Origin: Pelagomonas calceolata
Lineage: Eukaryota > Sar > Pelagophyceae > Pelagomonadales > Pelagomonadaceae
Length of the DNA stretch: 64,000 bases
Direction: 5' to 3'
Assembly: GCA_918797485.1 (NCBI GenBank)
Contig: CAKKNE010000006.1
Coordinates: forward strand, 3,100,001-3,164,000
The position numbers were made by a program, and so were the translations under genes. The number at the start of each line of letters is the position of its first letter. Position 1 is the stretch's first letter. The notes beneath the pieces are model-generated. The model had not been told where the DNA came from. It worked only from the letters and a program-made list of their open reading frames with translations, and did no database searches. Positions 8,501 to 62,144 of this stretch are shown here, piece by piece.

Positions 8501-11500
8501 ATGGAGACGCAGGAGACCCAGGAGGCCGCGGCCCCGCCTCCGCCGCCAGTAAAGATGGAAGTTGAGGCGCCGCCGGCCGCGAGTGCTCCTCCGGCGCCGG
8601 CGACGACCCCCGCGACGCCCAGCGAGCCCGGCGCAGCGCCGCCGACGCCGGGCCCGCCTTTGAAATACCCGCCGGGCTACGGCCCGCCGCCGACGCCGCC
8701 GACGGGCGACGAAGAGAGACACTGGGTTTCAGGGGTGGGTTGGAAGCCCGGCCCCGCGCCGCCCGCCGATTCTTCTAGAGCCGACAACGCGAAACGAGAC
8801 CTGAAGGGCACGCGGGCCTCGTCGCGCGTGCGGCGCGAGTCGGGCCGCTTCGCGGACTTACAAGAAGACGCCCCGAAAAAGAAGAAGAAGAAGAAGGGCG
8901 CGAACCAGTACACGAAGGCGAAAGAACGCGGCGACGCCCCGCCCTCGAAGAAGCAGAAGAAATCCAAAGAACCTAAAAGGATTGCGGAGACGACGACGTC
9001 CGAAGGTCAAACGGGGGCCATTGTAGAAATGTCCCAGAAGGACGCGGCCATGACGTCGCAACGACGGTTGCGAGCGACCTTGGTCGAGCCGCCCTACGAC
9101 CTGGAGTTGGTTCCGGACGCGAAGAGAGATCTGAGCGGTTCGGCACTGAGGCGCGTCGAAGGTACCGCGGAATGGGAGAAATTGCTCGCGGAGGCCATGC
9201 TTTTATGTAATGAAGCGGCCTGGAGGAGATTAGGAAAAGATAGAGGCGGCTCGCAGACCAACCAACGCACTGAATTGTCACCACCGGACGCGAAACCGCT
9301 CATGCTCGAATACATCTCGGACCGCATCGACACGGACGAGCCGCTCTGGGGCTACGCCGTGCGCACGCAGCGCGAGGCCTGGCTGCAGGGCTTCGTGTGT
9401 GTCACGCAGTTCACGACGTGGTGCCCGTCCGTGTGGACATCAAATTTCGGGCGCCCCACGCCATCGACGCGATGTTGTCTCCGTAGCTGCGCCTGCTCGA
9501 TGGCGTGACGATTCCACGCCATCGACGTGACGTCGTCCCCGCGACTGTGGCTGCTCGATGGCGTGGAGGTCCACGAAGAACTCACCGGTCGACGTCCGCG
9601 CAGGTGTCCCTACTTCCGCTGGACCGCTGCTGCTCCCGCGGCTGCGGTGACGTTAGACGACTACAAGACGCATGCGGTGGACGGGGAGGGCCCTGGGTCT
9701 GAAGGAGGCTCATTATGTCGCGAGTTGCAAGCATCTAGAAGATTTGGCGACTGCGATGGCGAAGGGGTGGTGTGGCCGCGCATCGCCGAAGTTTCTCTGT
9801 TAGGTGGTTTAGGTACTGGGAGAACCTTGATGGACACCGTGATAGCCGAGGTGGCGGACCGCGGCGACGCGGACTTTGTGGTGTTGCAGGCCACAGATCA
9901 AGCAGTACCTTTCTACGAGCGTTTGGGGTTCAGTAAAGTGGGCGCGGTCGCCTCCTTCGAGGAGAAGGGCAAGTCCTTGCCGAGAGAAGCGATGTGCGGT
10001 CTGAACGCGTCGTGTGAGCAGCTCGATAATGACGGCTTCACGCCCGGGGAGAGGGCTCGCGCGCGCTTGTCCACGGAATCACTCAAGGCGGCGGAAGGAC
10101 GACCGCTCAAGCTCAGAGACGGCGCCTGGTGCTTCGTCTGCAAGGAGGACGACACGGTGACGTCGGTCTGCGACTTGCTGAAATTACCTGATGCGGCAAA
10201 ACACGAGGTCAGTGACTCAGCGTGATTTCCGAACTTTTCCGAACTTCAAGGTCGCGTCGATGCCACGTCGCCTCGACGCCGTCGACGCGGCCGTCAGAGA
10301 GTCTACGCGTCTCGCGCGGGAGCCGCGGCCGCGTCGCGACGCCGTCGTTCGACACAGGTCGTAACCGCCAATAAGAGCTCTCTGTCGGGCCTGACCCAGA
10401 AGAGTCGGGTCATGGCGTCGACGATCATGGCCCTGCCGGCGGCCTATGCCGAGCAACTCGCAAAGTGTTCTCTAGCGGTCGACGAGCAGACGCTGGAAGG
10501 ATGTAACGGCTCGCTGACGACGACGGACGTCAAGGACTTGCGGGATAGTCCTCAGAAACCACCGACGCCGCCGCCGAAGCCTACATTAGGTGCGCGCTTG
10601 TACTGGGCCCGGAGACTCGCGAGGGCGGCGTTACGGTCGATACAAGCCCTCGACGAGTACCGCGTCTTCTGGGAACCTGTCAGCAGTGACATCGTGCCCC
10701 ACTACCGGTCGTGGGTCGCGTTTCCTTTAGATTTCACGACTATTCGGAAGAGGTTAGTTGATGGGGCCTCACCTTTGGAGTTGCGAGATGCCTACCTCCC
10801 CGAAGATCTCAGTATAGATCTCAAGTTAATCTGGCGGAATTGCGCCCATTTCAACGGCGAAGATTCTTGGTTAGCGTCATACGCAAGAAAGGTCGGCAAG
10901 CAGGCCCAAGACATCTTAGATCGGTTCGCCCGGACGCACGCGCATCTCCACAACCTGCGGGAGGAGCTCCAGAAGGACGACTGGGACCTGGACGAGGAGA
11001 CGCGGAACTTCCACAAGGTCAGTGACAGCGTCTGACCTTCGCGTCGATGGCGTCTTCATGAGACCACGCCGCCGCGGCGCCGTCGACGCGGCCGTCAGAG
11101 CATCTGTCCCACGCAGGCCGCCGAGACCGACCCCTCGTGCATGGGCTACGTGCACTGGACCTTCCCCGACCAGACGGTGGAGGACCAGTACCCTTCCTAC
11201 CTGATGGCGCGGCGCGTGAGGCCGCTCGGCGACGGTGTCCTGAGAACGACCGCCGACGATGCCGTGAACACTTTGAAGGGCGTCGTCGAAGCCGCCTCGT
11301 CCGCCGCGGAGAAGGCGCGACTCGCGTGTGTGCGCTGCGTCAACAAGGCCAAGAAGACCTTCGGCGAGGCGTACGAGGTTTCGTTGGAGGGGCGCCCGCC
11401 GCGCGAGCCGACGAAATACGAGATATCGTCGCAGTTCGTCGGGTCTTCTTATAGACGTAGGATGGAGGACACGGACGAAGCTTCGTTAAGACCGGCGACG

Positions 11501-13368: not shown

Positions 13369-13562
13369 TGCGGCGTCGATGGCGTGGGGGTGGACGGTTT
13401 GCAACCTCCACGCGACCGACCGGGCGGCAGCGTGGCGCGTAAAAATAACTGGCTTGTTTACAAAACAAGAGAGATGCCCCGGTTACCCCCAAACGCCATC
13501 AACGCGGCGCGTAAAGATAGATAAACAGGCTTACAAAGAGAAGTGGGGATGGGAAAAACAAT
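13369..13562. repeat. Intergenic inverted repeat related to the introner core
   Basis: Between two convergent genes, GCGTCGATGGCGTGG begins 3 bp after the upstream stop and AAACGCCATCAACGCGGCGCG lies at ~13491-13512. Together they form an imperfect inverted repeat of about 140 bp. Two related direct repeats, GCGCGTAAAAATAACTGGCT and GCGCGTAAAGATAGATAAAC, are present. It looks like an introner-related insertion outside a gene, or a folded 3'-end signal. Confidence 0.5.
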
Positions 13563-14330
13563 CTACGCGTCGACCTTTTTGTTGTACCGCAGCGTCGGCG
13601 CCGCGACGGCCGCGATGCTCTTCACCTCCAAATGAAAATCGCCCTCCGCGCCCTCGGCCCACAACTCCAGCCCCGTCAGCTCCGCCAGGTCCTTCGATGA
13701 GGGACAGTACTGCTCGAGGTCGCCTTCCCCGCAGCAGTGGTGCTGCACGCCCGTCGGATCTTTCGTGTCGCATTCGCCGGTATACGGCGACCAGTCCCAG
13801 GAGAAGTCCGTGAAGGGCACGAAGACCGTCTGCTCGCGCGCGCCACTGCTCAGCGCGAACGGGGCCTTGAACGTCCCGAAGGGCGTGTAGCGGCTCGAGC
13901 TCTTGGCGTGCTTGGTCGCGAAGGCGACCTTGAAGCCTTTGAAGGTTGGTGTCGTGGAGCGGACGACGAGCTCCAGACCTTTCGACTTGCTCACATCGGG
14001 GTATGAAGCGCGGAGGTGCGTCTTCTCGCTCTGGGCGGAGCAGAAGCCGGGAGCTTGCAGCGACGGCACGATCTTGCAGGTGCCGTTAAATACACCGGTG
14101 CCTTGGCTGATTTTGAAGGTCGCCTGGCTGAGGCCGCCCATGACCTGCGGGGACGGCGGGCGGTGAGCGGTGAGCGGTGAGCGGTGAGGGTCGCGGCGAT
14201 GGCGTACTGGTGCAACACCGCTGCTTACGGGGTCATTGGTCTCGGACCACGTTCTGCTGCCGTCAAATGTCTCCAACGTCTGCGCCGCAGCAGTGCTGAG
14301 GAGGGCTGTGGCAAGGACTAGCTTGTACAT
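13563..14330 (-). CDS. Secreted CIA30-domain protein
   Basis: Two exons (14229-14330 and 13563-14144) give 227 residues. The first ~17 residues (MYKLVLATALLSTAAAQ) are a signal peptide, so this copy is secretory or organelle-imported. The intron splits 'ETNDP' from 'VMGGLSQATF', and joining them restores the hallmark 'NDPVMGGxS' of CIA30 (complex I intermediate-associated protein 30). The beta-sandwich continues with 'PSLQAPGFCSAQS' and 'TVFVPFTDFSWDWSPYTGEC'. CIA30 proteins assist mitochondrial complex I assembly or related thylakoid complexes; the exact role of this signal-bearing paralogue is unknown. An upstream in-frame ATG at 14369 would bury the signal peptide. Confidence 0.82.
   Translation of the reverse strand: MYKLVLATALLSTAAAQTLETFDGSRTWSETNDPVSSGVAPVRHRRDPHRSPLTAHRPPSPQVMGGLSQATFKISQGTGVFNGTCKIVPSLQAPGFCSAQSEKTHLRASYPDVSKSKGLELVVRSTTPTFKGFKVAFATKHAKSSSRYTPFGTFKAPFALSSGAREQTVFVPFTDFSWDWSPYTGECDTKDPTGVQHHCCGEGDLEQYCPSSKDLAELTGLELWAEGAEGDFHLEVKSIAAVAAPTLRYNKKVDA
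14145..14228 (-). other. Intron of the CIA30 gene
   Basis: An 84-nt GT-AG intron (GTAAGCAG...CCCCGCAG on the minus strand) with four copies of TCACCGC in tandem. The 8-nt flanks gtaagcag / gtcatggg match at half the positions. No inverted repeat remains. Confidence 0.85.
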
Positions 14331-14853: not shown

Positions 14854-17800
14854 ATGAAGAAGTTCCAACCCCTAGGGGGCGGCGGCCCGCGCAAGGGCCC
14901 GCCCACGAAAAGACTGGGGACCTGCGGCCGGCCCTTGATCTTGAGTGATCAGGAACGTTTCAGAAGGGACTCCTGCAGCCAGGGCGACGGCAACGACGAC
15001 ATGGCCGTCGTACGAGCGCCTTTGGTCCCTGGTCTATTGACGACGGCGCCCGTCTCGCTCAAGGTGCGCCAGAAGTTCCGCCCTTTGGGAGTGGGCGGGC
15101 GGCGCGCCAACGAATTGCTGAAGAAGTCGTGTTTAGGGCCGCGGCGCGTGGCCCCGGGCAAGGCTTTGGTGAGCAAGTTCCTCAGTGGACGGGACTTCAC
15201 CCCCGGCGAAATTCAAGTCCCGACGGACATGGACCTGTCGCTCATGGAGGACTTGAGCGACGCGGAGGCCATGGACGAGGAGGAGCCGCCGCCGAAGTAC
15301 CGTCCGTCGGTCGGCGTCCGAAGTTCCGTCGTGGCGCCTCGCGGCGACGACGTGGCGCCCTCGCGTCGATGGCGTGGAGGTGGCGCCGTCGTCGACACCG
15401 TGACGCCGTCGATACCGCCGCGAGAGAGTCATCGTTTTGACACGCAGGCGAGCACGAACCGTTGGTCCTGTGCGAGGGCGAGGGCGACACGCCGGACATT
15501 GAAGTACCTCCACTACTATGCCAGTGGCTGCGGCCGCACCAGCGTGTATCAGCGTCGAACATCAACCCGTCTCGCGGCGATGGCGTGGAGGCGGAAATTC
15601 GAGGATGAGGCCGTCGACGCACCCGTAGTGAGAGGAGACGCGAACGTACGTCACGCAGGCGCGAGGGCGTCTCCTTCGTCTTCGAGTGCGTCCACGGCAT
15701 GAAGAAGGACCGGTACGGGGGCACCGGCGCGATTCTCGCGGACGACATGGGCCTCGGCAAGACGTTGCAGTCCATAACACTGATGTACTCGCTCCTGAAG
15801 AACAAGGATTCACAAGGAAAGCCGCTCGCGAAGCGCTGCATCGTCGTATGTCCGTGCTCCTTGGTGAAGAACTGGGAGGACGAGTTCGAGAAGTGGATCA
15901 ACTCGAAGGCCCACGACAAGAGCGAGCGCGTCGAGTGCATGGCGTTATCTGATACATCCAGAAAAACGGTCGAAGGCATGATCGACCAGTTCCTGTCGCC
16001 GGCCTGCTACTACGACGTGCTAGTCATCTCGTACGAGACCTTCCGGGCCCAGCACCAGCGCTTCGCGCGTAAAAAAGATAGCGCGGACATCATCGTCTGC
16101 GACGAGGCGCATCGTCTCAAAAACGACGAGGCCCAGACCAGTCAAGCTCTAGCATCACTAGCCTGCCGGAAACGAGTACTACTATCAGGAACGCCGATGC
16201 AGAACGACCTGGTGGAGTTCTTCGCCATGTCGAACTTCACGAACCCGGGCGGTAGTGCACGCGGCGTCCTTTTATCCGTCTTCCGATGCCGGGGGTGGTC
16301 GGAGAGCGCGGTCGCGGCGACGGCGTCTTCGCGACATGACGTCGACGCGTCCCCCGCACGCAGTCTTCGGCACCAAGGACAAGTTCACGAAGTACTACGA
16401 GGGCCCGATCCTGCGGGGCCGCGAGCCCGACGCGACGGACAAGCAGAAGAAGCTCGGCAAGGCGCGCCAGAAGGAGCTCTCCGATTTGAGCGACCACTTC
16501 ATCATCCGACGCATGAACCGGTTGAACGCCGAGCACCTACCGCCCAAGCTCACGCAAGTCGTGTGCTGCAAATTGACGCCCACCCAACAGCGCATGTACG
16601 AGCATGTAGTGAGGAAGCGGGACCGCGTCGCCGCTACCCAAGGTCATGTGAAAGATACATTAGGTGTCATCCAGCGGCTCCAGAAGATCTGCAACCATCC
16701 GTCCCTCGCGACGCAAGTCGACGCGTCGGCGTCTCGCGTCCAGCGCGACGACGCTCGAGAATTGGAGAGCTTGATGCCCGAGAACGACTTCGCGGCATCC
16801 GCGCCGCGGGGCCGAGGTGGCCGCATCGACCACAGATACGCGAGGATGGTCGATCCGGCTTTATCAGGTAAGCTACGGGTCTTGCACGCGTTGATGTCCG
16901 AGCTGCGACGGAAGGGCCGGGAGCGCATCGTCGTCGTCTCCGTCTACATGACGACTTTAGATTTAATCGAGCAGATGTGCAACCAGGAGGACTGGCCCTC
17001 GTGCAAGCTCGGCGGTTCCACTTCTACAAAGAAACGGAAGCAGTTCAACGATGAATTTAACGACCCCACGGCCAATTATTTTGCCTTTTTGTTGTCTTCC
17101 AAGGCCGGCGGGTGCGGGCTGAACTTGATCGGCGGTTCTAGACTGGTGATGTTTGATTTGGACTGGAATCCCGCGACGGACAAGCAGGCGGCCGCTAGGT
17201 GCTGGCGCGACGGCCAGCGCTACCAGTGCTACACGTACCGCTTCGTGTCGTCCGGGACCCTCGAGGAGCGGATGCTCCAGCGGCAGCTCTCGAAGGAGGG
17301 CCTCCAGAACGTCATCGAGGACAAGGACCAGGCGCGTGCCTCGGCGTCTACGCGACGCCGCGCCGCCGCGACGCCGTCGTTCGACGCAGGTCAACTCCTT
17401 CGCGACCGACGACCTCAAGAAATTATTTCTGTTCCGGCCGCACACGGCGTCGGATCTCCACGACGAGCTCCAGTGCCCCGTGTGCACGGGCAAGATAGCC
17501 GCCAAAAAAGATCGAAGCAAGAGAGGCGGCGCGAACGTGCTCTCAGCGAAAGCTGCCCAGAGGTGTCTGGAAGTGCTACAAGCTTCACTACTGAAAGATG
17601 ACGCCGACGCGAAGAAGCGGTTACTCACACCTATTCCTTCCAGTGGTGACGAATTGCATGGTCCCGTCGATAAAAAGCGCTGGACGGCGTCGAAGCCCCA
17701 CGCGGATCTTGGGAGCGTGTTTGCGAAGCTGAAACCGGACGCGCCTGGGCTCTATGGGACCATCCCGGACGTCTTGAAGGATCTTAGACGTATTAAGAGA

Positions 17801-19249
17801 ACAACAGATAAGCTCTGGCCGGATATAAATGAACACCCTACAAGACTAGCGGCCCAGAAACTTGTCCAGGAAGTCGACGCCTTGTGGGAAGGGTTGTGCG
17901 ACGAGATGTACGCCGCCAACGCGGAAAGCAAGACGACTGAGACTTGCTCAATCCTCGAACCGCAGGAGCCGGGCGACGGCTACAAGCCCCAGCAGTACCC
18001 CTTACCGAAGGAGGAAGATCTCAACAACTGGTCGCACCACGCTTCATTGGAGACCTGCGGCGACGAGGTCCTCAAGAAGGCGCTCCGAGGTCGCGACGAC
18101 GTGACGTTCGTGTTTGGCACGTACCAGCGAGGAACTCAATCTTCGAGCGCCCTTCAATTTTTGGTGTGTCGTGGTTTGCGTGAGGTGTTTCTCTCTATAC
18201 TCGGTCGCGTGGATCTCTCGGGGATCGTGTGTAACCTGACTCACTGGTTGATGTCCACACAGGCATGTACCAGGACTGGAATTTGATCCAGCAGGACACG
18301 GCGGCGCAAGCGAAGATCGAGGAGGAGCAGCGCGCTGAGAGGGAGGCGAAGGAGCGGTTGGACGCTGTGTGGCAATCAACCTGTGCGTCGGGTGCACTGA
18401 CGCGGCCGTCCTGGCTCGGTCGAGCGGCGAGGAACCGGCATCGCCGCGCCATCGAGCAGGCGTCGCGTCGATGAACGCGCCGTAAAATTTTGATTTCCAC
18501 CCAGGTTGGACGCCGAGGCGGCGCTGGCCGATGAGGATGACGAGGCTCCTGTCGTGGAAAAGAAGAAGAAGAAGAAAAAGAAGAAGCACAAGTCCGAGTC
18601 TTCTCATGACTCCGGTGCTGATGGTGACGCGGCGATGGCGCCCGTCGAGAAGAAGAAAAAAAAGAAAAAGAAGAAGAAGAAGTCCGCCGACGCCGAGGAC
18701 GCCGCCGCCGCCCTGGAGACGGCCGACGCCGACGCGGCCCTGGCGCCGGCGCACCCCGACGCTGGAGTCGTGGACACAACGCCGCCCGACGCCGTCATCA
18801 CGCAGCCGCCGCCGGCGCCCGCGCCCCGGGTCGACTCCCAGGAGGAATCGTCGCAACCGACGCCGGACTGGCCGCGGCCGGGTCAGGTGGTGGAGTGCGT
18901 CTGGACCAAGGGCACTGCTTTGTCAGATGGCGACGTCGACCGGTGCGTCGTCGAGTCGATCAGAGACCCGGTCCCTCATAAAAAACGCAAGGCCGGCGTG
19001 CCCGAGCACTTGGCGTACCAGTGCTACGCCCAGCTCAAGTCGCTGATCAAGCTCGCGGGCGACACGGACCAGCCATACGAGACCGTGCCCGAGTCCGACC
19101 CGCGGCCGAAGCATATTCATTTGAAGTACAAGCTGGACCTCGCGGACCACGGGCGGACGTGGCGCGTGCTCCCGGTGAGCAAGAAGGCCTCGCAGCGCGA
19201 GTCCGTCGGCGAGACGTTCTCGGCGATGTCGGACCTGACGAACAACTAG
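14854..19249 (+). CDS. RAD54: RAD54-type SNF2 DNA-dependent ATPase with lysine-rich C-terminal extension
   Basis: Seven exons: 14854-15301 (or 15313), 15448-15541, 15659-16251, 16364-17331, 17390-18116, 18263-18356, 18505-19249, giving ~1,222 residues. SNF2 motifs are in order: 'LRPHQREGV', 'DDMGLGKT' (Walker A), 'VCPCSLVKNW', 'CDEAHRLKN' (Walker B), 'LLSGTPMQNDL', 'SSKAGGCGLNLIGGSRLV' and 'DWNPATDKQAAAR'. The 'HFIIRR', 'GRID' and 'WSHHASLE...VTFVFG' elements mark the RAD54 subfamily, which drives strand exchange with RAD51 in homologous recombination. Family members normally end near the FVF motif. Here exons 6-7 add ~280 residues with two polylysine runs. Three introns need GC donors. Exon 1 has two in-frame donor choices. 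Confidence 0.9.
15302..15447 (+). other. Intron 1 of the RAD54-like gene
   Basis: 146 nt if the donor is GT at 15302. A GC donor at 15314 also keeps frame and adds four residues. It ends GACACGCAG and contains GCGTCGATGGCGTGG and GACGCCGTCGATAC, a decayed introner core. Confidence 0.65.
15542..15658 (+). mobile_element. Introner element, GC-AG intron 2 of the RAD54-like gene
   Basis: Only a GC donor at 15542 restores the invariant SNF2 sequence HQREGV; GT choices at 15544 and 15546 break frame. Eight bases (gcgtgtat; right copy gcgcgagg, 4/8) precede a terminal repeat, CAGCGTCGAACATCAACC, close to the family repeat. The core GCGATGGCGTGG is present and the acceptor is CACGCAG. Confidence 0.75.
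16252..16363 (+). other. Intron 3 of the RAD54-like gene
   Basis: A 112-nt GT-AG phase-1 intron. The join gives 'NFTNPG' + 'VFGTKDKF', as in RAD54 proteins. It contains GCGGCGACGGCGTC and ends GCACGCAG. No clear duplication remains. Confidence 0.82.
17332..17389 (+). other. Intron 4 of the RAD54-like gene (58 nt, GC-AG)
   Basis: It splits 'EDKDQ' from 'VNSFATDDL'. No GT donor keeps frame, whereas GC at 17332 (CAG|GCGCGTGC) does. It is a compact GC-rich hairpin with GCGACGCCG arms, ending TCGTTCGACGCAG. Confidence 0.72.
18117..18262 (+). mobile_element. Introner element, GC-AG intron 5 of the RAD54-like gene
   Basis: The duplication gcacgtac / gcatgtac matches at 7/8, and its first two bases, GC, act as donor. 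The right terminal repeat CACTGGTTGATGTCCACACAG is intact; the left one, CAGCGAGGAACTCAATC, is decayed. The join is 'TFVFG' + 'MYQDWN'. Confidence 0.78.
18357..18504 (+). mobile_element. Introner element, intron 6 of the RAD54-like gene (young)
   Basis: A perfect 8/8 duplication, gttggacg, flanks an element with terminal repeats CTGTGTGGCAATCAACC and AATTTTGATTTCCACCCAG. Donor GT comes from the left duplication and acceptor CAG from the right repeat. The join restores 'KERLDAEAA'. The core CATCGAGCAGGCGTCGCGTC is present. Confidence 0.93.
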
Positions 19250-19335: not shown

Positions 19336-20733
19336 TCAGTCCAACGACGCGTCGAGGTCGCGCCGCAGCGCCTCGACGTCGTCCGAGCGGTATTTGTCCC
19401 GGTACCTGCGTGCGATGTTGTCTCCATAACTGCGTCTGCTCGGCGGCGTCGAGGTCCCACGCCATCGACGCGACTGGTTGATTTCCACACTGGCACGAAC
19501 GCGTCGGCGGGCGTCGAACGGACCTCGAGCCCGCTGGCGCGCCATGCTCGCGCCTCGCCCTTCTCCGGCGCGACGGGCGGCGGCTTCGCGACGCGCGCCG
19601 GCAGGGCCGCGGCCTTCTCCTTGGCGCGCGCCCGCGCCGTTTCCTCGTCCAGTCCCTTCGTGACGAGCTGCTGGAAGAGGGACTCCTCGAACTTGGCCCG
19701 GAAACGGTCTGTGGCCTCGACACCCGACGGGGGTTCGGGCGCCGGCTCTTCCTCGGGCGCGTCCTCGACCTTGCCCGTGATCTCGTTCTCGGCGCCCTCC
19801 TCCTGCTCGACGATGACGCGCAGCGGGTATTCCGAGGGCGGCGGCGGCGGCGGGAGGTTCTCGATGGCCAGCTTGACCTGCTCGGCGTGCGACAGGCGCG
19901 GCTCGGGCGGCTCCTCGAGGATCGGTTTATCGTCGTCGGCCTCGTCCTCATCGTCCGGCAGGAGCTGGCGCAACGTCACCTCGAGGAACTGATCCACGAA
20001 GGTCCCCACGGTGCCCATCTCTTCAAAGTCGAGGGCGTGGTTGTAAAAGACGCGGCCCTGCGCGTCCGACAGGCGCCGGTAGCTATCCAGGGTGGACTGC
20101 TTCGCGGCCTCGTAGTTGTTGTTTTCCCGCCTAGAATCCTTCAGACCTGTGCACAGATCAACCAGTGAGTAAAGCCGCCGTGAAAATTTGATTTATGCTC
20201 AGCTCCAGACCATAGACCTCGAAGTCGCACGTGTTTGCCACCAAATGCAAGGCAACGCCTTCGAACGACCGGGCGATGGAGCCGTACCGCGACAGTGCGT
20301 CGTCGAGCCCATCAACACTTGAGAAGCTCGTGACGAAGAGGATCGCCGCGGCGCCGTCGCGCCAGCGGTCCGGGTCGTCCGGTAATCGTACGAACTTGAC
20401 GTCGGCCGCTTCCAGTAACACTACGCCCGTCGCGACCCGTGCGGCCGCCTCCAACAACAAAGTGTCCGGCTTCGTCGATGCGCCGATGGCCTCGGAAATT
20501 TGTCTCAACAAGAGGGCCGTGTCGGCGGCGTCGGTGCCGGCCACATAAATACGCACTTTGCGCTGCTCCAGGAGATATAGAGCTTCTACTTCTGCCGGTC
20601 CCGCCGTCTCGCAGGCGACGCCCCAATCGATAAGTGCTCTTCGCGCTTCCTCGATGAATGCGAGCTCTTGTTTTGAGTACTTCCTTTTGGTGGTAAGGCT
20701 GCCCAGGGCCTTGATTTTACTTAACAGGCCCAT
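19336..20733 (-). CDS. Degenerate G-protein-alpha-like protein
   Basis: Three exons (20211-20733, 19501-20146, 19336-19405) give 412 residues. Exon 1 has the strand-loop order of a G-alpha/Arf fold, but the P-loop reads 'GTDAADTALLLRQ' where GAGESGKST is expected. The Thr-Gly of switch I (ATGVV) is kept. The switch II DVGGQ is replaced by 'RLPDDPDRW', and NKKD by 'ANTCDF'. Lys and catalytic Gln are therefore absent, which suggests a non-hydrolysing pseudo-GTPase. Exon 2 continues with an acidic, proline-rich tail of ~210 residues. The start at 20733 gives MGLLSKIK, possibly acylated at Gly2. An in-frame ATG at 20799 is the alternative. The assignment rests on pattern and is moderate. Confidence 0.6.
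19406..19500 (-). mobile_element. Introner element, intron 2 of the G-alpha-like gene
   Basis: A 95-nt GT-AG intron. The 8-nt flank gttcgtgc precedes the terminal repeat CAGTGTGGAAATCAACC, and the other end has lost its repeat (ends CACGCAG). The right flank, gtaccggg, matches only partly. The core shares GTTATGGAGACAACATCG with the element at 9421-9603. Confidence 0.72.
20147..20210 (-). mobile_element. Introner element, intron 1 of the G-alpha-like gene (64 nt)
   Basis: The duplication gtctggag / gtctgaag matches at 7/8. Terminal repeats are CTGAGCATAAATCAAA and GTTGATCTGTGCACAG, the CATAAATC subfamily shared with 43612-43702. The core hairpin is missing, so this is close to a minimal element. 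Confidence 0.88.
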
Positions 20734-21023: not shown

Positions 21024-21649
21024 ATGGGCCCGCCGCGCGACAAGCAGGTCGCGCTCTCGACGTTCTCGTATGTCTTCAGCGAGCTTGTTCAATACAACAT
21101 GACGAAGATTAGGAGCTCAGCGGAACTCGAAGCCAATCTGGAAAAGCTGGGCAAGGACCTCGGGAAGCGAGTCCTCGATGCTTTGTTTCACCGCGACCGC
21201 CTCACGAAGCGCGAGCTCACTGAGGTGGGAATATTACAATTCATCTCCACGACCGCGTGGAAGGCCTTGTGGGGCAAAGCCGCCGATTCCCTAGAAAGAT
21301 CTACGGATCGAGAGGATGAGTATATGATAGTAGACAGTGCTCCATTGGTCAATCAGTTCGTGTCCGTGCCGGCCAACTTAGGCGCTTTGGATTGCGCGGC
21401 GCTGATGGCGGGGGTGGTGGCAGGGATACTGGTGTGTGCCCGGCGTCCCATACGCCATCGACGCGACTCACCACTCGCCCCGCGCAGGACGGCGCCTACT
21501 TCGCTGCGAAGTGTACCGCTCATCCTAGAGAAGAGGGCGGGACCGTGTTCCTCATACGTATCGGGCACGACGAGGCTGAGGAACAAAAAGAGCCGGAGCT
21601 CGTCGAGATGCGGCCGGTCCTGCCGCTGGCGGACCGGGCGCTGGCATGA
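21024..21649 (+). CDS. TRAPPC5: TRAPP complex subunit 5 (Bet3 family)
   Basis: Two exons (21024-21431, 21488-21649) give 189 residues, the usual length. Family sequence is clear throughout: 'LSTFSYVFSELVQYN', 'LEKLGKDLGKRVLDAL', 'ILQFISTTAWKALWGKAADS', 'DEYMIVDSAPLVNQFVSVP', 'LDCAALMAGVVAGIL' and, after the intron, 'DGAYFAAKCTAH' and 'GTVFLIRIGHDE'. TRAPP tethers ER-derived and Golgi vesicles and acts as a Rab1 exchange factor; subunit 5 (yeast Trs31) is a core scaffold protein. The start at 21024 is the ATG closest to the conserved domain. Confidence 0.93.
21432..21487 (+). other. 56-nt intron of TRAPPC5
   Basis: GT-AG, phase 0. It holds one arm of the introner core (ACGCCATCGACGCGACTCACC) and ends CCGCGCAG. 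It is either a decayed or deleted introner. Confidence 0.85.
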
Positions 21650-21673: not shown

Positions 21674-23239
21674 TCACCGAGAACTCTTCTTACTCCACGG
21701 CTTCACGGGCGTCAGCCCGCCCTTCGACGCCCGTTTTCGAGCCTCTGCAATCAACGTGTCGTCGTCCGCCAAGCCGGAGATCTCATCAACAGACAGGAGA
21801 GATATCGCGTCGCGCTCGTGGTCCGGCGCGCGCGCGACCGCGCCCGTCGCGCCCGTCTCGTACGTCTTGTCGCCGGTGCGGCCCGACGCGTACGACCCGC
21901 TCGCGAGCGTCGGTTCTGAGACGTGCGAGGCGTCCCTACTGGCGAACGTCGCCTCCTCCTCCAGAATGTCCTTCCCGGGCGATCCGCTGTCCTCGACAAC
22001 GACTGATTGCTGCCGCTCGAACAATTCCTCGAAGACGTCGCTCACAAATCCATCTCTTTGTTGTCGATCCAGGTCGGCCCAAGCTCGCCTCACCTGATTC
22101 AAGGTCGCTGTCGACGAGCCGGGCGTGCAGGGGGGCAACCTCCGTCTCGCAGCACTCAGCAGCGCGGTCACCTCGAAAGTGCTTGCATTCCGAACCTCTT
22201 CCTGGAGCTCCTGGAGTTTTTCCGATTCAGCTAGTTTGGAATCGCGGTCCGCGCGGGCAGCGGAGAGGCGGCATCTTACAGAAGCGTCGTCAGCGGCCTT
22301 GTACCTATTCTCCGGCGACGCCACTTGCAGCACGGGCCGGCGCTGCCTCCTCATTTTGCGTTTCGTGGTCATGCGCCGCGCCGCCGCGCCCTGACGCCGC
22401 CGCGCATCCTTGAGCCGCGTTTTTAGTTGTGCAGCGTCCGCTTCGAGCACGTCGATCTCGCCCCGCAGTCGCACCTGTGTGGAAACCAACCAGTGAGTAG
22501 ACGCAGGCAACCTCGCGTCGATGGCGTGGAAGCTCCACGCCATCGAGCAGACACAGAATCGCACCATCTCCTCTCTATGCAACACCATCTCGCCGTCCAT
22601 GCGCTCCATCTCGACGACCTGCTGCCGCGTGTTGCGCGACAGGCGCGCCTTGGTCTTTGCCAGCTCGGCTCGCCTAGCGGCTAACAGCGCCTCCTCGGCC
22701 GTCTTCTCCAATTGTCGTTTGTCGCGCGCCACTTTACGGGAGTGTTCTTCCTGTTCCTGGCGCCGCTGGCGCTCGAGATCTTCGCAGAGCGCGTGCGTCG
22801 CGACGAGCTCGGCTTGGGTGCCCTCGCGTTTCTCCGCAAAGTCCTGTAACAAACGCCGCTCCTCCTCCGACGCGCGGGTGGCCGCATCTATGATGAGCAT
22901 CTCCTGGGCCTGTTGCGCGGCCATGGATGCTGCTTCATCTTCAATCTGTCGTCGCTTCGCAAGAGACAATCGATTCGTCTCGCGGACCCGCCGGTCGAGC
23001 TGTTGCAGAGCGTCGCGGTTGTCGCTCAAACGCTTCTGCGCGAACTTAAAGGTCTCGAACTGGACGTCGCGCCGCTTCCGGATCTTGGCCCTTGCTTGTC
23101 TGTTTTTTTTGGACCATGCAATCAGCGCTCTTTCCTCGTCGGCGTGGGCCGCGTGGACCACGGTGCGCCTGAAACTTGTGACGGCGAGTCTCGCTTGCTC
23201 GGCGGCGAGGGGGTCGATCTCCTCGGCCTCGGTCGCCAT
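21674..23239 (-). CDS. Long coiled-coil protein
   Basis: Two exons (22565-23239, 21674-22474) give 491 residues. Residues ~35-330 are continuous charged coiled coil rich in Arg/Lys/Glu/Gln, with 'RKRRDVQFETFKFAQKRLS' and 'EERRLLQDFAEKREGTQAEL'. The rest is a mixed acidic tail with Ser/Thr clusters. The 90-nt intron has no stop and is a whole number of codons, so an unspliced message would insert 30 residues; removing it joins 'LHREEMV' to 'RLRGEIDVL' and keeps the heptads. It resembles cytoskeletal or basal-body coiled-coil proteins, but no orthologue can be named. Confidence 0.7.
   Translation of the reverse strand: MATEAEEIDPLAAEQARLAVTSFRRTVVHAAHADEERALIAWSKKNRQARAKIRKRRDVQFETFKFAQKRLSDNRDALQQLDRRVRETNRLSLAKRRQIEDEAASMAAQQAQEMLIIDAATRASEEERRLLQDFAEKREGTQAELVATHALCEDLERQRRQEQEEHSRKVARDKRQLEKTAEEALLAARRAELAKTKARLSRNTRQQVVEMERMDGEMVLHREEMVRFCVCSMAWSFHAIDARLPASTHWLVSTQVRLRGEIDVLEADAAQLKTRLKDARRRQGAAARRMTTKRKMRRQRRPVLQVASPENRYKAADDASVRCRLSAARADRDSKLAESEKLQELQEEVRNASTFEVTALLSAARRRLPPCTPGSSTATLNQVRRAWADLDRQQRDGFVSDVFEELFERQQSVVVEDSGSPGKDILEEEATFASRDASHVSEPTLASGSYASGRTGDKTYETGATGAVARAPDHERDAISLLSVDEISGLADDDTLIAEARKRASKGGLTPVKPWSKKSSR
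22475..22564 (-). mobile_element. Introner element in the coiled-coil gene (90 nt, frame-neutral)
   Basis: The duplication gtgcgatt / gtgcgact matches at 7/8. The terminal repeat CTGTGTGGAAACCAACC is intact at one end and the other keeps CTGTGTCTG. A compact core palindrome, GGCGTGGAGCTTCCACGCC, is present. The length is divisible by three and stop-free. Confidence 0.88.
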
Positions 23240-31955: not shown

Positions 31956-32653
31956 TTACTGGCTCTCGATGTCCGCCTGGATGGGCTTGTCGCGCTTCGC
32001 GTCTTCTATCTGCTGCACGGACGGCGCGACCTTCTGCGCGGCGAGGACGAGCCAGCCTGTGTTTGAACGAGTGAGCCGCCGCGTCGATGGCGACGGCGCG
32101 TCGCAAACGTTGAGGCTCGAGGACGCCGAGGCGTGCTCATCCGCGCGGTGCGGAGCCACCGCGAGCACCCGTCCGCGCGGATCCAGGTCGTCAGGTCCGT
32201 GTCGCGTACTTGAACGTCTGAGACTCGCCGTGGTCGCCCGAACTCAAGAGCGCGTGCTCCATCAGGCGCGGGTAGGCCTGCACGAACTTGAGCGCCCGCT
32301 TGACCTCGCCTCTCCAGAAGATGACCCCTGCCAGGGAGTAGCCGGCCCACGCGCCGACCTGTGTGGAAATCGAAATTTTACGGCGCGTTCGCCATCGACG
32401 CGACGCCTGCTCGATGGCGTGGTGATGCCGGTTCGCGCCCGACGCATTGGTTGATTTCCACACAGGCGCCGACGAGATATGGGACGAGCGGGCCCGCTCC
32501 GAGCAACGCGCCGGCCTGTCCAAAGAATAGGCCGGATGTTGTCGAGACAAAGGTGGAGAACGCCACGAATCTCCCGACGAACCGCGCTCGGCACGGGACG
32601 ATTCCCAGGCTGGCACCGAGCAATTTGATGCCTGCATCCTCTACTCTTATCAT
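31956..32653 (-). CDS. Small membrane protein with two introners
   Basis: Three exons (32474-32653, 32229-32358, 31956-32056) give 136 residues. Two or three hydrophobic segments are present: 'FVAFSTFVSTTSGLFFGQAG', 'PLVPYLVGAWAGYSLAGVIF' and, in exon 3, 'WLVLAAQKVAP'. Intron 1 is certain: it is flanked by a perfect duplication and restores 'PYL' + 'VGAWAGYS'. Intron 2 requires a GC donor at 32228 to connect to exon 3 in frame. The start at 32653 is the first ATG of the open frame, and an upstream exon cannot be excluded. The protein is not recognised; it looks like a small organelle membrane protein. Confidence 0.62.
32057..32228 (-). mobile_element. Introner element, probable GC-AG intron 2 of the small membrane protein gene
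   Basis: 172 nt. Eight bases (gcgagtct; right copy gctggctc, mostly transitions apart) precede CAGACGTTCAAG. The other end is CGTTCAAACACAG. The core GCGTCGATGGCGACGG is present. No GT donor gives the right phase. Confidence 0.6.
32359..32473 (-). mobile_element. Introner element, intron 1 of the small membrane protein gene (young)
   Basis: A perfect 8/8 duplication, gtcggcgc. Terminal repeats CTGTGTGGAAATCAACC and AAATTTCGATTTCCACACAG are nearly perfect. The core is CCATCGACGCG...CTCGATGGCGTGG. It lies in the same orientation relative to its gene as the 18357 element. Confidence 0.95.
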
Positions 32654-33895: not shown

Positions 33896-36382
33896 TCAAG
33901 CCAGCGGCTCGGACCCGAGCACGGCCAGCGTCGTGTTGAGCAGCTGGAGCTCCGCCGCCGGGTTCGCCGCGTCATCAATAATTTGATGAGTGGGCTGATA
34001 GCCGAGCACGGACGCCTCGAGCTCCTCGAGCTCGCGCATCTCGCACTGGAGGAGCTCGTAGCGCACCAACCCCGAGCCCGCCGGCGCCGCGCCGCCCGGC
34101 CGCGGCCGCAGCCGGGCCGGCACAACCACAGACGCATCTAAAGGTCGTCGCAACTCGCCGCGCGGCGACGCCGGCCTCGCGCCATCCAACCGCGACAACA
34201 AATCCTCCTTCTCGTCCCTACATAACCCCATCAGTTGCTTCAGGCGCCGCGCATCCTCAAGAGCTTCTAACGTCCGCCTCCTGGACCTCTCGGCTAATTG
34301 ATGTCTAACAAACCATCTCCGAAAACCAGCGGGATGCGCCACGAGCCGCGCGTACAGCCTTTCTTCGCGACACGGCAGCCCCACTCGGACTTGCACATCA
34401 TCCCGACACCGCAACGCCGCCGTCGACGACGCCAGCAAAGCTTTTCCGATGTCTTCTTCTTGCGCGACGACCTCCAGCAACGGCCGCACACCACCGGCAT
34501 CGCGGATCTGCAGCTGGTTCGACAGATCTCCGTCCGCGACGTTCCGCAGAGTCTCGGCAAGATCCCGAGCCGCCGTGCCATCATTATCATCCTCTTCAAG
34601 AACATTCTGCAACAAATTGACCACGGTGGGAATCACGGAGTCGTCCTCGTTCACGGCCTCCTTCAGCTGCGTCCGCAAGATGTCCTTTTGGGGCTCTTCG
34701 TGTTCCTGCGGTTCCACGAGAGCTGCGAGAGCGCCCGCCGCTTGGACCGCCGCTGCTGGCCTTTCATGACCTCTGGACAACATAGTAACGAGTTTCTGCA
34801 CCGTGTCCGTCTCGGCGAGCTCCGAACGTAGCGTCTCCTCGTCAACCTCTTCATCATCAACTGCGTCGCCGGCTCGGACGAAGGTCTGGAGCGTTAGTGC
34901 TGCGGAGGCCTGGCCCCACTCGTCGCCGTCCTCCAACAACTCCACAACTTTTTCCACACCGCCGGCGTCGCGCACGGCCTGCAACGCGCCCGGCGGCTCT
35001 TCGTCATCATCTGATAATACTGCTGATTCTTCACAGGCCACCTCCGAATCAATCAGCGTCCGCATCGTCGCCATGGCCGCCTGCTTCTTGGCCCAGTCGT
35101 CGTTGTCTTCTAAAACACCTACTACTGCTTTCGCGGCCTCGCTGATGCCTTCCCTACCCAAACCTACGAGCGCTTTGGTGGCGTTCTGGGCGCTTACTGA
35201 ATTCTCCGTCGTTTGGTCGAGGTCGCAACCGCGCGCTTGCAACGCCGCTTCCTCGGCCGGCGGCAAGGCCCGCGTCGCCGTCGCGACGATGCTTTCCACA
35301 ACCCCAGGCCGCTTCACGATGGCCTCCTTCGCCTCTTGCGACGTCTGTTCGTCGTCCAGCATGAGCTGGAGCACGCCTGTGTGGAATTGACTCCGTCGCG
35401 AAACCGCCGCGGCCCGCCGGCGAGACGCGTGGACCCTCTGGCGGCCACGTCGACGGCGTCGAGGCAACACGCCATCGCAGCGACGGCGTCGACGCGACCA
35501 CGTCACGTTCAAGTTCATTTCCCACGCTGAGTCAGCACCGACGGCGTCGTCGACGTCGCCCGGCTTCTCTTGCAGACATTCTGTGACGTCCAGCAAGCGC
35601 GGCAGTAGGAACGGCTCCGAGAAGACGCGATGTCTCGCTTCGCCACCTGCCCTGGCTAATTGCGAGATAGCGCCTAATGCTGAACTTCGAACTCGTTCAC
35701 GGTCAGAGCCGAGCATGCCTACTATAGGCGCGGTGATGTCTTCGCGCATGACCGTTTCCAGGCGTTGCGGCTGTTGTTGGGGTCTACTCGTAGATACGAC
35801 CTGTCGCAGGACATCGGCGGCGGCGATCTGCGATTCGGGATTTGATTCCTGTGAGAGTAGTCCTACTAAAGGAGCGACGCCGTCGTGCTCGACGACCGCC
35901 CTCACAGCGGCGGCCGGTCGGTGCGCGGGCCCGCCCCACGGGTTCTGTGACGGCTGATGATGCGTCATCAGGCGTAGAGTTTGGACGGCCGACGCTCGGT
36001 TTCTCGGGTCCTCGTCGCCGAGCTGTTCACAGATCACGCGGTAGCCCGGCCATTGAGAAGTAGGCTCCTCCTGGGGCATCGGCTGGAACGGCGGTTGGAA
36101 CGTTGCTGCTACTGCGCTCAACGAGCTCCCCGAGGCGACGGCGGCCCTAGCCGCCGCTCGGGCTTCGCGTCTTCGTTCTAGACTGCCCTGGCCTCGTCGC
36201 TGTTTTCTTGGTTGTGTGCCGTTCGTCGTCCGTCGCACGGGCGGCCGGTCCTTCGGTTGCGTGCGGTAGCCGTTCGTTGCCGGGGCGGCGCGCGCGTAGC
36301 CATTCGGTTGTTGTTGTCTGTGGTAGGGTGCCGGCGGCGGCGGCGGCCGCGGCGGCCGCGCGGCGTAGCCGTGGTAGGCCAT
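33896..36382 (-). CDS. Armadillo-repeat protein
   Basis: Two exons (35539-36382, 33896-35376) give 774 residues, starting at MAYHGYAARPP in good context. A proline/glutamine-rich N-terminus with a basic patch (~100 residues) precedes helical ARM repeats: 'APLVGLLSQESNPESQIAAA', 'APIVGMLGSDRERVRSSALG', 'EKVVELLEDGDEWGQASAAL' and 'QKLVTMLSRGHERPAAAVQA'. The repeats continue to about residue 600, followed by a charged helical C-terminus. The 162-nt intron is stop-free and a multiple of three, so retention would insert 54 Arg-rich residues inside a repeat. It is probably a scaffold; no specific orthologue is named. Confidence 0.8.
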   Translation of the reverse strand: MAYHGYAARPPRPPPPPAPYHRQQQPNGYARAAPATNGYRTQPKDRPPVRRTTNGTQPRKQRRGQGSLERRREARAAARAAVASGSSLSAVAATFQPPFQPMPQEEPTSQWPGYRVICEQLGDEDPRNRASAVQTLRLMTHHQPSQNPWGGPAHRPAAAVRAVVEHDGVAPLVGLLSQESNPESQIAAADVLRQVVSTSRPQQQPQRLETVMREDITAPIVGMLGSDRERVRSSALGAISQLARAGGEARHRVFSEPFLLPRLLDVTECLQEKPGDVDDAVGADSAWEMNLNVTWSRRRRRCDGVLPRRRRRGRQRVHASRRRAAAVSRRSQFHTGVLQLMLDDEQTSQEAKEAIVKRPGVVESIVATATRALPPAEEAALQARGCDLDQTTENSVSAQNATKALVGLGREGISEAAKAVVGVLEDNDDWAKKQAAMATMRTLIDSEVACEESAVLSDDDEEPPGALQAVRDAGGVEKVVELLEDGDEWGQASAALTLQTFVRAGDAVDDEEVDEETLRSELAETDTVQKLVTMLSRGHERPAAAVQAAGALAALVEPQEHEEPQKDILRTQLKEAVNEDDSVIPTVVNLLQNVLEEDDNDGTAARDLAETLRNVADGDLSNQLQIRDAGGVRPLLEVVAQEEDIGKALLASSTAALRCRDDVQVRVGLPCREERLYARLVAHPAGFRRWFVRHQLAERSRRRTLEALEDARRLKQLMGLCRDEKEDLLSRLDGARPASPRGELRRPLDASVVVPARLRPRPGGAAPAGSGLVRYELLQCEMRELEELEASVLGYQPTHQIIDDAANPAAELQLLNTTLAVLGSEPLA
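35377..35538 (-). mobile_element. Introner element in the armadillo gene (162 nt, frame-neutral)
   Basis: On the minus strand it starts GTGCTGACT, then the terminal repeat CAGCGTGGGAAATGAAC, and ends GTCAATTCCACACAG. The core is CGTCGACGCCGTCGCTGCGATGGCGTG. The GTGCT flank recurs 2 bp after the acceptor. It joins 'DDAV' to 'GVLQLML'. Confidence 0.8.
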
Positions 36383-43002: not shown

Positions 43003-44458
43003 ATGGACCTCAAAGTGAGCCCGGCAGCCGAGGACACACCAGAAGCAAAAGCACCGCTGCTGGACCTCGAAGCCGTCGAGCGACGGGTTCGGACCCTCGA
43101 GACCGACGCCCGGACGCCCGATGAGCCGACGCTGCACCATCTCGCGACGCGCGAGCCCACCAGTTTTCACCAGACCACAATATACTACGGGTTGCAACGC
43201 GAGGACACGCCGCCGTGGCGCAAGTACGGGCTCCTGGCCACTAGTATCGGAATCGTGTTTCTGCAGTGCTTCGTCGCTGTTGGACTTGCCCACGGGGTCA
43301 CCTTTAGCACGTGCAGCGAGCATTCCGATTGCTCACGCGGCACGTTCTGCGAGGGGGGCATGTGTGAATGGTGCTATGGGCCACTCAGACCATGCTGTCA
43401 AACCAACTCGACAGACACCTGCGTGCTGGACGAAAAGCAAACAACAGAAGAAGGAGGATTTAGCGATGAATTGAGAGAAGAGAAGAATAGGGAAGCTATG
43501 TGCGCCGCGTGCACGACCAGCAAAGGATTCGAGACTCTGCAGGACGTTGTGAAGGACCGGATGGAATCCATGATGCTTCAGGACTGGCTGACGCTCTTCT
43601 TGGCATCGTTAGTCGTCGCCTGTGCATAAATCAACCAGTGAGCGTCGATGGCCGATGCGACGATTCAGCACGAACGCGCCTGAAATTTTGATTTATGCAC
43701 AGGTCGTCGCGTTCGCCGTGTTCGCAGAGATACGGGATTGTATGCTGTGCGAGATCGCCTTGCGAGAAATATCAAAGCGGCGGGAAGTCCCACGAGGCTG
43801 GCGATATGCCATAAATGGCCTTAATTATGCCAGGTATATCTGTCTGCTTCCAAATATAATTTACTCAGTCATGGCACTTGTATATGAGGACGGCGGGCGA
43901 GTGAAATACTTGTGTCTCAATACCGTTGCAGTACTCTTTTTGTTAGAGGTGGATAACCTGGCGTTTCTGCACGGTCTCGGCGAGCGCACCCGCATGGAAG
44001 CAGAGCAACATGCTCATTCGGGGGCACGCGTCACGGAAGATGACCTGCAGCTCATGGGCGTGGTAAAGCTCGTGTGCGTGATCCTCATCCCCTGCACCGT
44101 TCTCGTCGGCGTCTGTGGCCATAGCTGGGTTCCGGACGAGCCCGACACTTTTATTATTGCGTTTTTTCCTTTACCGTCTATTGCCGTGCTGTTCGTGCAG
44201 CGTGTGATGGCGAGTAGACGCAAGCTCAAGGGGGCCTGCAGCGGGCTCGGCTGGGCAATTCTCAACTACTCTATGTATGGCGTATGGGGGGGTTGTTTTT
44301 ACGCGGTGACGTACATGCAAGCCCAGGGACCAGAGGTCGTTCTTAGTTGGGGACCATTGCCATATGCGCTCGCGGCGATGCTTGCACTGACGCTCGTCAT
44401 ATCGATTCTCACGGATTTCCCACCCTCGCCGTCGACTGCGTCTTCGGGATTGTCATGA
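43003..44458 (+). CDS. Multipass membrane protein with cysteine-rich loop
   Basis: Two exons (43003-43611, 43703-44458) give 454 residues. An acidic cytosolic N-terminus leads to membrane segment 1 (~residues 80-100, 'LATSIGIVFLQCFVAVGLAH'). A cysteine-rich extracytosolic loop (~103-160, 10 Cys, EGF/granulin-like spacing) follows, then six or seven further segments ('LFLASLVVAFAVFAE', 'YICLLPNIIYSVMALVY', 'LVCVILIPCTVLVGVCG', 'FIIAFFPLPSIAVLFV', 'MLALTLVISILTDF'). It belongs to an unnamed algal membrane family; channel, receptor or transporter cannot be decided. The single intron is a young introner in the second membrane segment. Confidence 0.82.
43612..43702 (+). mobile_element. Introner element in the multipass membrane gene (young)
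   Basis: A perfect 8/8 duplication, gtcgtcgc. Terminal repeats CTGTGCATAAATCAACC and GAAATTTTGATTTATGCACAG are near-perfect. The right half, GACGATTCAGCACGAACGCG, is identical to part of the 61268-61478 element. It is a member of the CATAAATC subfamily. Confidence 0.95.
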
Positions 44459-60420: not shown

Positions 60421-60565
60421 AAAAATCATCCCCTCCCCTCCCCTCCCCATACTTGGAACCGACGAACCCCTCTGCGCTCCAAGAGTGCAAGGCCCTTCGC
60501 GCCCGCGCCGGCGACACGTCGGCGCGCGGAATACTAACCATCGATAAATCGCACAAACACAACAT

Positions 60566-62144
60566 TTACCCGAGCGCCCGGAGCGCCCGCGCAACTCGCA
60601 CGTCGCCCGGCGCGAGGGCGTCGGCCGCGAGGAGGTCGGCGCGCGCGCCCGGCGCGTCGCCCAGGCGCTGCAAGGCGTAGGCCCGCTCTAGAAGGGCCTC
60701 CGCGTACGCCGGCCGGAGCTGTAGCGCGTCGCCGAGCGGGCCCAGCGCGGCGTCGAACGCGTCCGCGCCGAGGTAGAACCGCGCGAACTTGAGGTGCGCC
60801 GCCGCGAGCGCCTCGGAAGAAGGCGGGTGGGCCCGCGTCGGCGCCGCGCGCTCGGCCGCGTGGGCGCCGCGGCACCGCTCGATCGTTTCGGAGGCTTCCT
60901 CGGGCCGGCCCGCGGCGTGCAGGGCCTCGGCCAGCAGCACGGCGACCTCGGGCTGGAGGCACCGCGTCAGAGCCACGGCCCGCCCGAGGGCCGCGACGGA
61001 CTCGTCAAAGCGCCCCAGGTGCGCCGCGGCGACGCCCGCGGAGTGCAGCGCGCGGACGTCGTCGGGCGCGCGCGCCAGGACGGCGCGCGCGCGCCGCAGG
61101 CGGTCCGTCGCCGGCCACTGCGCCTGCTCGCCGACGGCGAGGGCCTCGCCGACGTTGAGCGTCGCGTGCGTCCAGCCGCGCGGCACGTACAGGACGTCGC
61201 CCGGCGCCTGGAGGCAGCCCCCCCGGAGGATCGCCGCCCAGTCCCGGATCGACGCGAGGGGGTGGACCTGTGTGGAAATCAACCAGTGCGTCGGGTGCAT
61301 CCGACAATTCTTCACTAAGTCATTTCTCGGCGATGGCGCGGCCGTTCTGGCCCCGTCGAGGAAAGAGGAACCGGCGTCGCCACGCCATCGAGCAGGCGTC
61401 GCGTCGATGGCGTGGAGGTCGACGCGACGATTCAGCACGAACGCGCCGTAACATTTTGATTTCCACACAGCGGTGGACGGCCCCCTCTTCATCGATCGCG
61501 GTGCCCGGCGCGCGCAGGAACCAGCGCTTGCGGCCGGCGACGAGGCCGAGCCACGCCTCGCCGTGCGCATGCGGCGGCAGGCCCGACCGCGAGGGCCCGA
61601 GGCTGAGGAGGCCGTAGGACGCCGCCGCCGGGAAGGCCCGCGCCAGGACCGGCGGCGCCGCGAAGTCCCTCGCGAGCTCCGGCAGCGTGCCGAGGAGCCG
61701 CGCGTCGAAGGCGACGGCGTCGGACCCGTTCCGCATCTGGCGGAGGAGATCTCTAAGAGTGGCGTGGTTCGCGGCGCCGCCGCCCGCGTATATAATGTCC
61801 GAGCCCGTGCCGACGTTCGCCGCTCGATCGCCGAAGTGCTCGAGCAGGTACGCACGCGTCCACTTTTCGAGCGCGGGCCAGTGCGCCGCGGCCCCGCGCA
61901 GCAGCAGGGGCTTCTTGCCGCGGTACTCCGCCTCGAAGTCTCGTAACGAGATCGCGGCCGCGGCGTCGACGTCGCAGCCGTTTGGTGGGAGGCCGCGGAG
62001 CAGGTCCGCCGCCCCGGCGTCGCCGCGCCAGCCATTCCTCGGCGCTACTTTCTGCCGCGCCGCGAGGCGTCCGACGACTGCTACGGCTGCCGCGGCGGCC
62101 CACCACCACTTGTTGTGGCTCTGTCGTGCGCGCTTCCGCGGCAT
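60566..62144 (-). CDS. JmjC-domain oxygenase with C-terminal TPRs
   Basis: Two exons (61479-62144, 60566-61267) give 455 residues. One N-terminal hydrophobic anchor (~residues 13-30) is followed by a JmjC/cupin fold: 'DFEAEYRGKKPLLLRGAAAH', metal-site 'SGLPPHAHGEAW', 'GRKRWFLRAPG' and, in exon 2, 'APGDVLYVPRGWTHATLNVG' with the distal His. C-terminal TPR-like helices (~residues 280-450) include 'RARAVLARAPDDVRALHSAG'. Fe(II)/2-oxoglutarate JmjC proteins hydroxylate or demethylate proteins. The anchor and TPRs suggest an organelle- or ER-bound protein hydroxylase. The intron restores 'DEEGA' + 'VHPLASI'. Confidence 0.85.
61268..61478 (-). mobile_element. Introner element in the JmjC gene (211 nt)
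   Basis: The duplication gtccaccg / gtccaccc matches at 7/8. Terminal repeats CTGTGTGGAAATCAACC and ACATTTTGATTTCCACACAG are intact, and the element is reversed relative to its gene compared with 18357. It is the longest full copy in the window. The core is CGCCATCGAGCAGGCG / GCGTCGATGGCGTGG. Confidence 0.95.

Follow-up and report, generated by a model that had tools for sequence, protein, structure and literature searches.

Introner elements as the probable source of introns in a 64-kb window of Pelagomonas calceolata

The introner elements of Aureococcus anophagefferens and Micromonas pusilla were reportedly described by Huff, Zilberman and Roy in 2016. Second-hand accounts of them are given in the accessible parts of PMC7789003, PMC9860276 and PMC10228655. 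According to the available text of PMC7789003, Aureococcus introners have direct repeats and terminal inverted repeats of constant length, together with canonical splice motifs. Introner families whose duplication supplies the 5′ splice site are already published (PMC9860276, available part), known introners co-opt splice sites and insert in both orientations (PMC10228655, available part), and viral carriage of introners is proposed in the accessible portion of a mirusvirus paper (PMC12768974). The subject here is a stretch of 64 kb from Pelagomonas calceolata (the window; 63.9% guanine plus cytosine (GC), zero N), in which eight introns appear to be introner insertions that take the donor from an 8-bp duplication and the acceptor from an inverted end of the element. 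The mechanism is already described for Aureococcus and others, and the window adds a clear new set of copies; independent replication, a check of a junction in a conserved protein and a hint of older introners are additions to the known picture.

Likened by description and not by letters, the window's introners share with those of Aureococcus, as far as the available text of PMC7789003 goes, the inverted-repeat ends, the direct repeats of constant length and the canonical splice motifs; that introners with inverted repeats are established for Aureococcus, as a sequence-only reading of this DNA had stated, is therefore in print. With the introners in the accessible part of PMC10228655 they share the co-opted splice sites and both orientations. 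In the parts of PMC9860276 that are open, Symbiodinium microadriaticum introners have 4-bp duplications (Fig. 2B) against 8 bp in the window, whereas family 4 of Aureococcus sp. TARA_AOS_82_MAG_00129 (Fig. 2F) has the same 8-bp duplication. In that family both splice sites are carried by the element and the transcript gains 12 bp, whereas the window's introners would add nothing. The available account of P. calceolata (PMC9481584) gives a GC content of 63.6%, 0.45 introns per gene and an intron length peak at about 210 nt; the window has 19 listed introns for about 37 predicted genes, and one introner copy is 211 nt long, the other seven being 64-183 nt. A description of the particular ends found here was not met with in the literature consulted, which excluded most subscription papers and all supplements.

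The two ends of the element are related but distinguishable. Each reads CTGTGTGGAAATCAA inward, followed by CCAGTG in one and AATTTTACGGCGCG in the other, so that the divergence starts just inside the shared 15 nt. A scan of the window for end motifs that ignored duplications (at most 5 mismatches per end and 8 in total, spacing 30-700) gives 18 candidate end pairs. Seven of these (9429-9603, 18125-18262, 18365-18504, 20147-20202, 32359-32465, 43620-43702 and 61268-61470) have flanking 8-mers that match at 6-8 of 8 positions, and the remaining 11 have flanks matching at 0-3. At the eighth site, 22475, one end is near-perfect (1 mismatch) and the other truncated; the far boundary of this site was placed using the duplication, so the site is not independent.

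On the forward strand, the introner introns are 9421..9603 (183 nt; GTGCCCGT / GTGTCCCT, 6/8; element 9429-9603 with two copies of the core motif described below), 18117..18262 (146 nt; GC donor; GCACGTAC / GCATGTAC, 7/8) and 18357..18504 (148 nt; GTTGGACG / GTTGGACG, 8/8), both in one SNF2-type helicase gene, and 43612..43702 (91 nt; GTCGTCGC / GTCGTCGC, 8/8). On the reverse strand they are 20147..20210 (64 nt; GTCTGGAG / GTCTGAAG, 7/8), 22475..22564 (90 nt; GTGCGATT / GTGCGACT, 7/8; donor-side end truncated), 32359..32473 (115 nt; GTCGGCGC / GTCGGCGC, 8/8) and 61268..61478 (211 nt; GTCCACCG / GTCCACCC, 7/8), the last in a JmjC/cupin gene. The scores given in the sequence-only reading, three perfect duplications, four of 7/8 and one of 6/8, were reproduced identically on rescoring. 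When the eight sites are pooled, the flanking 8-mers are identical at 58 of 64 positions (z 10.9 against a control of the same spacing), compared with 17.5 ± 3.7 (standard deviation) matches and a maximum of 39 for random pairs in 20,000 trials. The mispaired flanks of the eight sites match at a mean of 3.4/8, and the match between true flanks spans eight columns. At a random site the probability of 8/8 is 0.00015, that of at least 7 is 0.0014 and that of at least 6 is 0.0098.

The predicted splice sites fall where the same reading had placed them. The donor on the host-gene strand is the first two bases of the intronic duplication copy, GT at seven sites and GC at 18117, and G[TC] at all eight donors would arise by chance with a probability of about 8e-7, from dinucleotide frequencies. 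The acceptor is the CAG of the repeat at all eight window sites, and the combination of a G[TC] donor and a CAG acceptor holds at 11/11 sites when three copies from another assembly, described below, are included. Terminal inverted repeats with at most 2 mismatches at both ends are present at five of the eight window sites and in those three pairs; the ends are decayed or truncated at 9421, 18117 and 22475. The inverted-repeat ends claimed earlier are thus present, with the qualification that on the forward strand the literal CTGTGTGGAAATCAACC occurs only once and TTGATTTCCACACAG twice, the other ends being variants, such as the CTGTGCATAAATCAA-type end found on both sides of 43612 and on one side of 20147. 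The sequence is repeated at non-homologous positions, each of the eight introns outscoring all 100 of its own shuffles in comparison with the other seven. By a simple end rule applied to the 11 sites, the acceptor is formed by one end at seven and by the other at four, so both orientations are used. Duplication decay tracks end decay weakly, in the expected direction (Spearman 0.62, two-sided p 0.10, n=8; one-sided permutation p 0.05, computed on a quarter of the permutations).

Removal of the segments restores the reading frame at most sites. In the gene models around the introns, a premature stop results if the segment is kept at 9421 (at amino acid 335), 18117, 18357, 20147, 43612 or 61268, and a frameshift with a stop if it is kept at 32359. 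Placement by frame continuity, as proposed from the sequence, is supported at seven sites. It does not extend to 22475-22564, where frame is uninformative on splicing because the segment is 90 nt long, a multiple of three, and stop-free. Retention of this intron or of 35377-35538, also stop-free and a multiple of three, would add a peptide and leave the gene unbroken. In the SNF2 gene, which has six introns, only one of 12 boundary combinations is stop-free when the three other introns are fixed. Conserved proteins also run across junctions. A Pfam JmjC_2 match spans the 61268 junction, and an alignment to solved JMJD6 crosses it with gaps nearby, because JMJD6 is longer there. Among the other introns, a Pfam SNF2 match spans the 16252 junction, and removal of 21432-21487 gives a TRAPPC5-like protein whose alignment is gap-free at the junction.

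The same elements recur in another assembly. A scan of a genome collection with a 17-mer from the end gives 42 stretches, and among 43 end copies checked (these and L001, a stretch from IMG/VR) only L027 has a partner end and an 8/8 duplication; L005, L008 and L009 have partner ends at 4 mismatches and flanks matching at 0-2/8. The source of L027 is a metagenome-assembled genome (MAG) titled Spirochaeta sp. isolate MED672 (Spirochaeta sp. MED672). Six MED672 contigs, scanned for end pairs, contain four, of which three have at most 2 mismatches at both ends and 8/8 duplications (GTCATGAC, GTCGCCAC and GTCGGCCG; 24/24 positions), all beginning GTC. The fourth, with 4 mismatches per end and flanks matching at 1/8, is read as chance. 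The first MAG element (L061 6246-6335) sits in a CNNM gene, and the protein obtained on its removal aligns to solved CNNM4 over query residues 19-361, gap-free at the junction; the predicted protein of the third element's host gene matches EcKL/APH. The copy at L061 7295-7359 combines a CAT-type end with a TGG-type end, so that end subtypes mix within one copy. Since intron-bearing genes of eukaryotic type (CNNM, a kinase-like gene and DNA polymerase alpha) are found in three of the six contigs, the MED672 contigs are probably mis-binned DNA of seemingly the same algal lineage; L061, L062 and L064 correspond to contigs C146, C182 and C143 of G001. A comparison of 38.3 of the 64 kb (stretches of 19.3 and 19.0 kb) with the MAG gives 12 matches, all inside window introns, and no gene orthologous to one in this part of the window was found in MED672; the elements are therefore what is shared.

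Similar sequence at unrelated gene positions, inverted ends, an 8-bp duplication and a frame restored on removal all agree with the introner interpretation first drawn from the sequence. With a probability of about 93%, we take these introns to be insertions of a non-autonomous cut-and-paste DNA transposon, the introner, in which the duplication becomes the 5′ splice site and an inverted end the 3′ splice site. A transposase encoded elsewhere would insert the element and make an 8-bp target duplication; duplications of this length are made by hAT-like and other superfamilies. Where the target 8-mer starts with GT (or GC) on the coding strand, its upstream copy would serve as the 5′ splice site, with the CAG that faces outward at the downstream end serving as the 3′ splice site. 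Splicing would then remove one duplication copy and the element, leaving the original exon sequence. Either orientation would work because both ends finish in an outward CAG. The window would then show, at the level of single bases, how a transposon can turn into an intron and leave the gene intact, and it holds copies of several ages next to one another.

Several observations weigh against this interpretation. The gene finder, which was home-made, self-trained and blind to the elements, called no intron at 22475, 32359 or 43612 in three runs. It was exact at both ends for just one of the eight introns in any run, namely 61268-61478 in one run, three other runs giving 61347-61452. Three runs gave 9418-9603 for 9421-9603, and only one boundary was common with 18117 (18262), 18357 (18504) and 20147 (20147). 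No transposase is found among the Pfam matches of 20 open reading frames and eight spliced host proteins, nine further open reading frames lying outside the scan. For the strong single ends at 19492 (1 mismatch) and 35377 (3 mismatches), no partner gives a 6/8 duplication, and L062:2397 is a strong unpaired end in the MAG. The frame is uninformative at 22475, and the duplication was used in placing one boundary of that site.

Other explanations can be given for parts of these data. If the segments were repeats resembling miniature inverted-repeat transposable elements that lie inside genes and are not spliced, the genes would be broken or the segments translated. The segments at 22475 and 35377, stop-free multiples of three, would allow this, but a G[TC] start and a CAG end at eight window and three MAG sites are not expected of unspliced repeats, and the gap-free CNNM junction and the Pfam JmjC match across another junction speak against it as well, so that this explanation is very unlikely. 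Even less credence is due to the route suggested for fungal introners, in which introns spread when RNA copies are reverse-spliced, with the flank match reflecting a site preference. The mostly intronic location of the copies (16 of 26 core copies, and 7/7 exact ones by midpoint) is what it would predict, but site-specific 8-bp duplications with inverted ends are a mark of DNA transposition, both orientations relative to transcription are not given by reverse splicing of spliced RNA, and 8 of the 26 core copies are intergenic.

The terminal repeats might instead be kept because an end-to-end RNA hairpin, joining donor and acceptor, is needed for splicing, and a comparable proposal has been published for Amoebophrya, as far as the accessible text goes. 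RNA folding of eight introns (9421 left out) gives paired ends with z of -2.7 to -4.8 at 43612, 32359, 18357, 22475 and 61268, and at 43612 the two ends form a 15-bp stem. Excess stability is absent at 18117, 20147 and 19406 (z 0.44, 0.45 and -0.08), which nevertheless keep donor, acceptor and frame; 20147 pairs its ends despite its z. The two ends also differ in type in the copy at L061 7295-7359. A hairpin requirement is therefore improbable, and, given the three introns that lack excess stability, end pairing is more probably a side effect of the transposon ends than a requirement of splicing, and it appears to be inherited, not maintained. Selection on the acceptor-side end was considered and rejected, the mismatch sums over 11 sites (13 for acceptor ends and 19 for donor-side ends) giving no usable difference; CAG is kept at 11/11 acceptors and the mirror CTG at 8/11 donor-side ends. 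A TTGAT lies inside the last 20 nt at 8/11 sites, which is too little for a claim that it is the branch point.

Transposon-derived introns may extend beyond these eight. A palindromic 15-nt core, ACGCCATCGACGCGA, has 26 copies in the window within 2 mismatches, compared with 0-1 matches in eight block shuffles of the core test. By midpoint, 16 copies lie in introns (2.2 kb in all), 8 are intergenic and 2 exonic; all seven exact copies are intronic, one of them straddling a donor. The core is present in 14 of the 19 introns (4-nt overhang allowed). The core was taken from the elements under test, and the list of 19 was compiled partly with the core in view (14145 and 32057). If the introns are instead taken from the last gene-finder run (18 of its 20, two of 13-14 nt being removed), 12 of the 26 copies are intronic. 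The core is also found in MED672 contigs C141, C157 and C170. The intergenic copies, with 1-2 mismatches, are at 1506, 2608, 12545, 12556, 13371, 13493, 26150 and 37498, several of them just past stop codons.

For the kinship of the other 11 introns the core test is stronger than local alignment to the eight, in which, with exon controls, 19406, 21432 and 35377 are clear, 15365, 15569, 17332 and 32057 (aligned from 32059) are borderline (p 0.02-0.04; 17332 has p 0.12 against shuffles), and 10208, 11018, 14145 (aligned from 14142) and 16252 are not significant. The reverse-strand intron 19406..19500 scores 41 against the eight, a value reached by none of 300 exon controls, and appears to be a decayed introner, with a good end at 19492, the acceptor-side end lost and no 8-bp duplication seen. 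An introner-like intron with an exact core lies at 21432..21487 (+) in the TRAPPC5-like gene. A probable decayed introner at 32057..32214 (-) has the acceptor-side end CTGTGTTTGA, its donor position being tentative, and a probable intron at 14145..14228 (-; core with 1 mismatch) was spotted by eye with the motif partly used. Three further forward-strand introns with the core are 15365..15447, whose donor is straddled by an exact copy, 15569..15658 (1 mismatch) and 16252..16363 (2 mismatches; within the SNF2 domain). The GC-AG intron 17332..17389 (+; 58 nt) lacks the core at 2 mismatches. The SNF2 gene thus holds two GC-AG introns, 17332 and 18117, and the GC at 18117 is supplied by the duplication itself.

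A second, older family of repeated introns, family B, is represented by 10208..10357 (+), which starts GTCAGTGACTCAGCG, as does its relative at L064 2954-3117 in a gene fragment that matches DNA polymerase alpha. Similarity to introns of this L064 gene is seen in 10208 (70% over 164 nt, E 2e-21), 11018 and 35377. The family-B-like intron 11018..11116 (+) has an exact core; the gene finder gave 11018-11116 in one run, 11018-11098 in two and 11030-11116 in one. The other, 35377..35538 (-; 162 nt), has one CTGTGTGG-type end and no clear duplication, and a clear 8-bp duplication was not seen in family B. A further DNA polymerase alpha intron, with a core variant, starts GTCGATCT, and the exon reads GTCCATTA (5/8, both Pro-Ser-Ile in frame); its donor was picked to restore a conserved motif, and the duplication is suggestive only. 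Several other window introns thus show signs of being older introners, and introners may account for most introns in the window. If so, the rate at which transposon marks are lost becomes measurable, and the share of ordinary-looking introns in such algae that go back to introners can be examined. A bolder and quite tentative proposal is that nearly the whole intron complement of the lineage was made by transposons in successive waves, comprising young introners that still show 8-bp duplications, older ones in which neither duplications nor ends are recognisable, and the related family B, all sharing one palindromic core; the visible introners would then be only the most recent layer in an ongoing turnover of introns.

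Carriers of the elements were sought in IMG/VR with six exact patterns, two long ends and four 17-mers. The long patterns have zero matches and the 17-mers match 1, 3, 35 and 4 stretches. No element is visible by eye in about 600 bases each of L001-L004 (GC 0.45, 0.41, 0.61 and 0.43), and the end in L001 has no partner with an 8/8 duplication. In the other 39 stretches no end pair (allowing 4 mismatches at each end) is flanked by a duplication of at least 6/8, and nothing matches window introns at 1e-5; L109 and L112 have one single end each at 2 mismatches. At E 0.05 the stretches with the family B start, L109-L112 (L109, L111 and L112 being related contigs), show a similarity to intron 10208 that is confined to its first 17-34 nt, and they are taken as chance. 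A blastn search of a phage collection with one element found nothing, and viral carriers were rejected on these scans.

The surroundings are gene-dense and eukaryotic; Pfam scans of the window identify TRAPP, SNF2, bromodomain plus acetyltransferase, JmjC, armadillo, CSN7/PCI, CRAL-TRIO and ankyrin genes. Two TPR genes, separated by 24 kb, contain tandem 126-nt repeats (3109-4133 and 27963-28902) that are about 60-93% alike.

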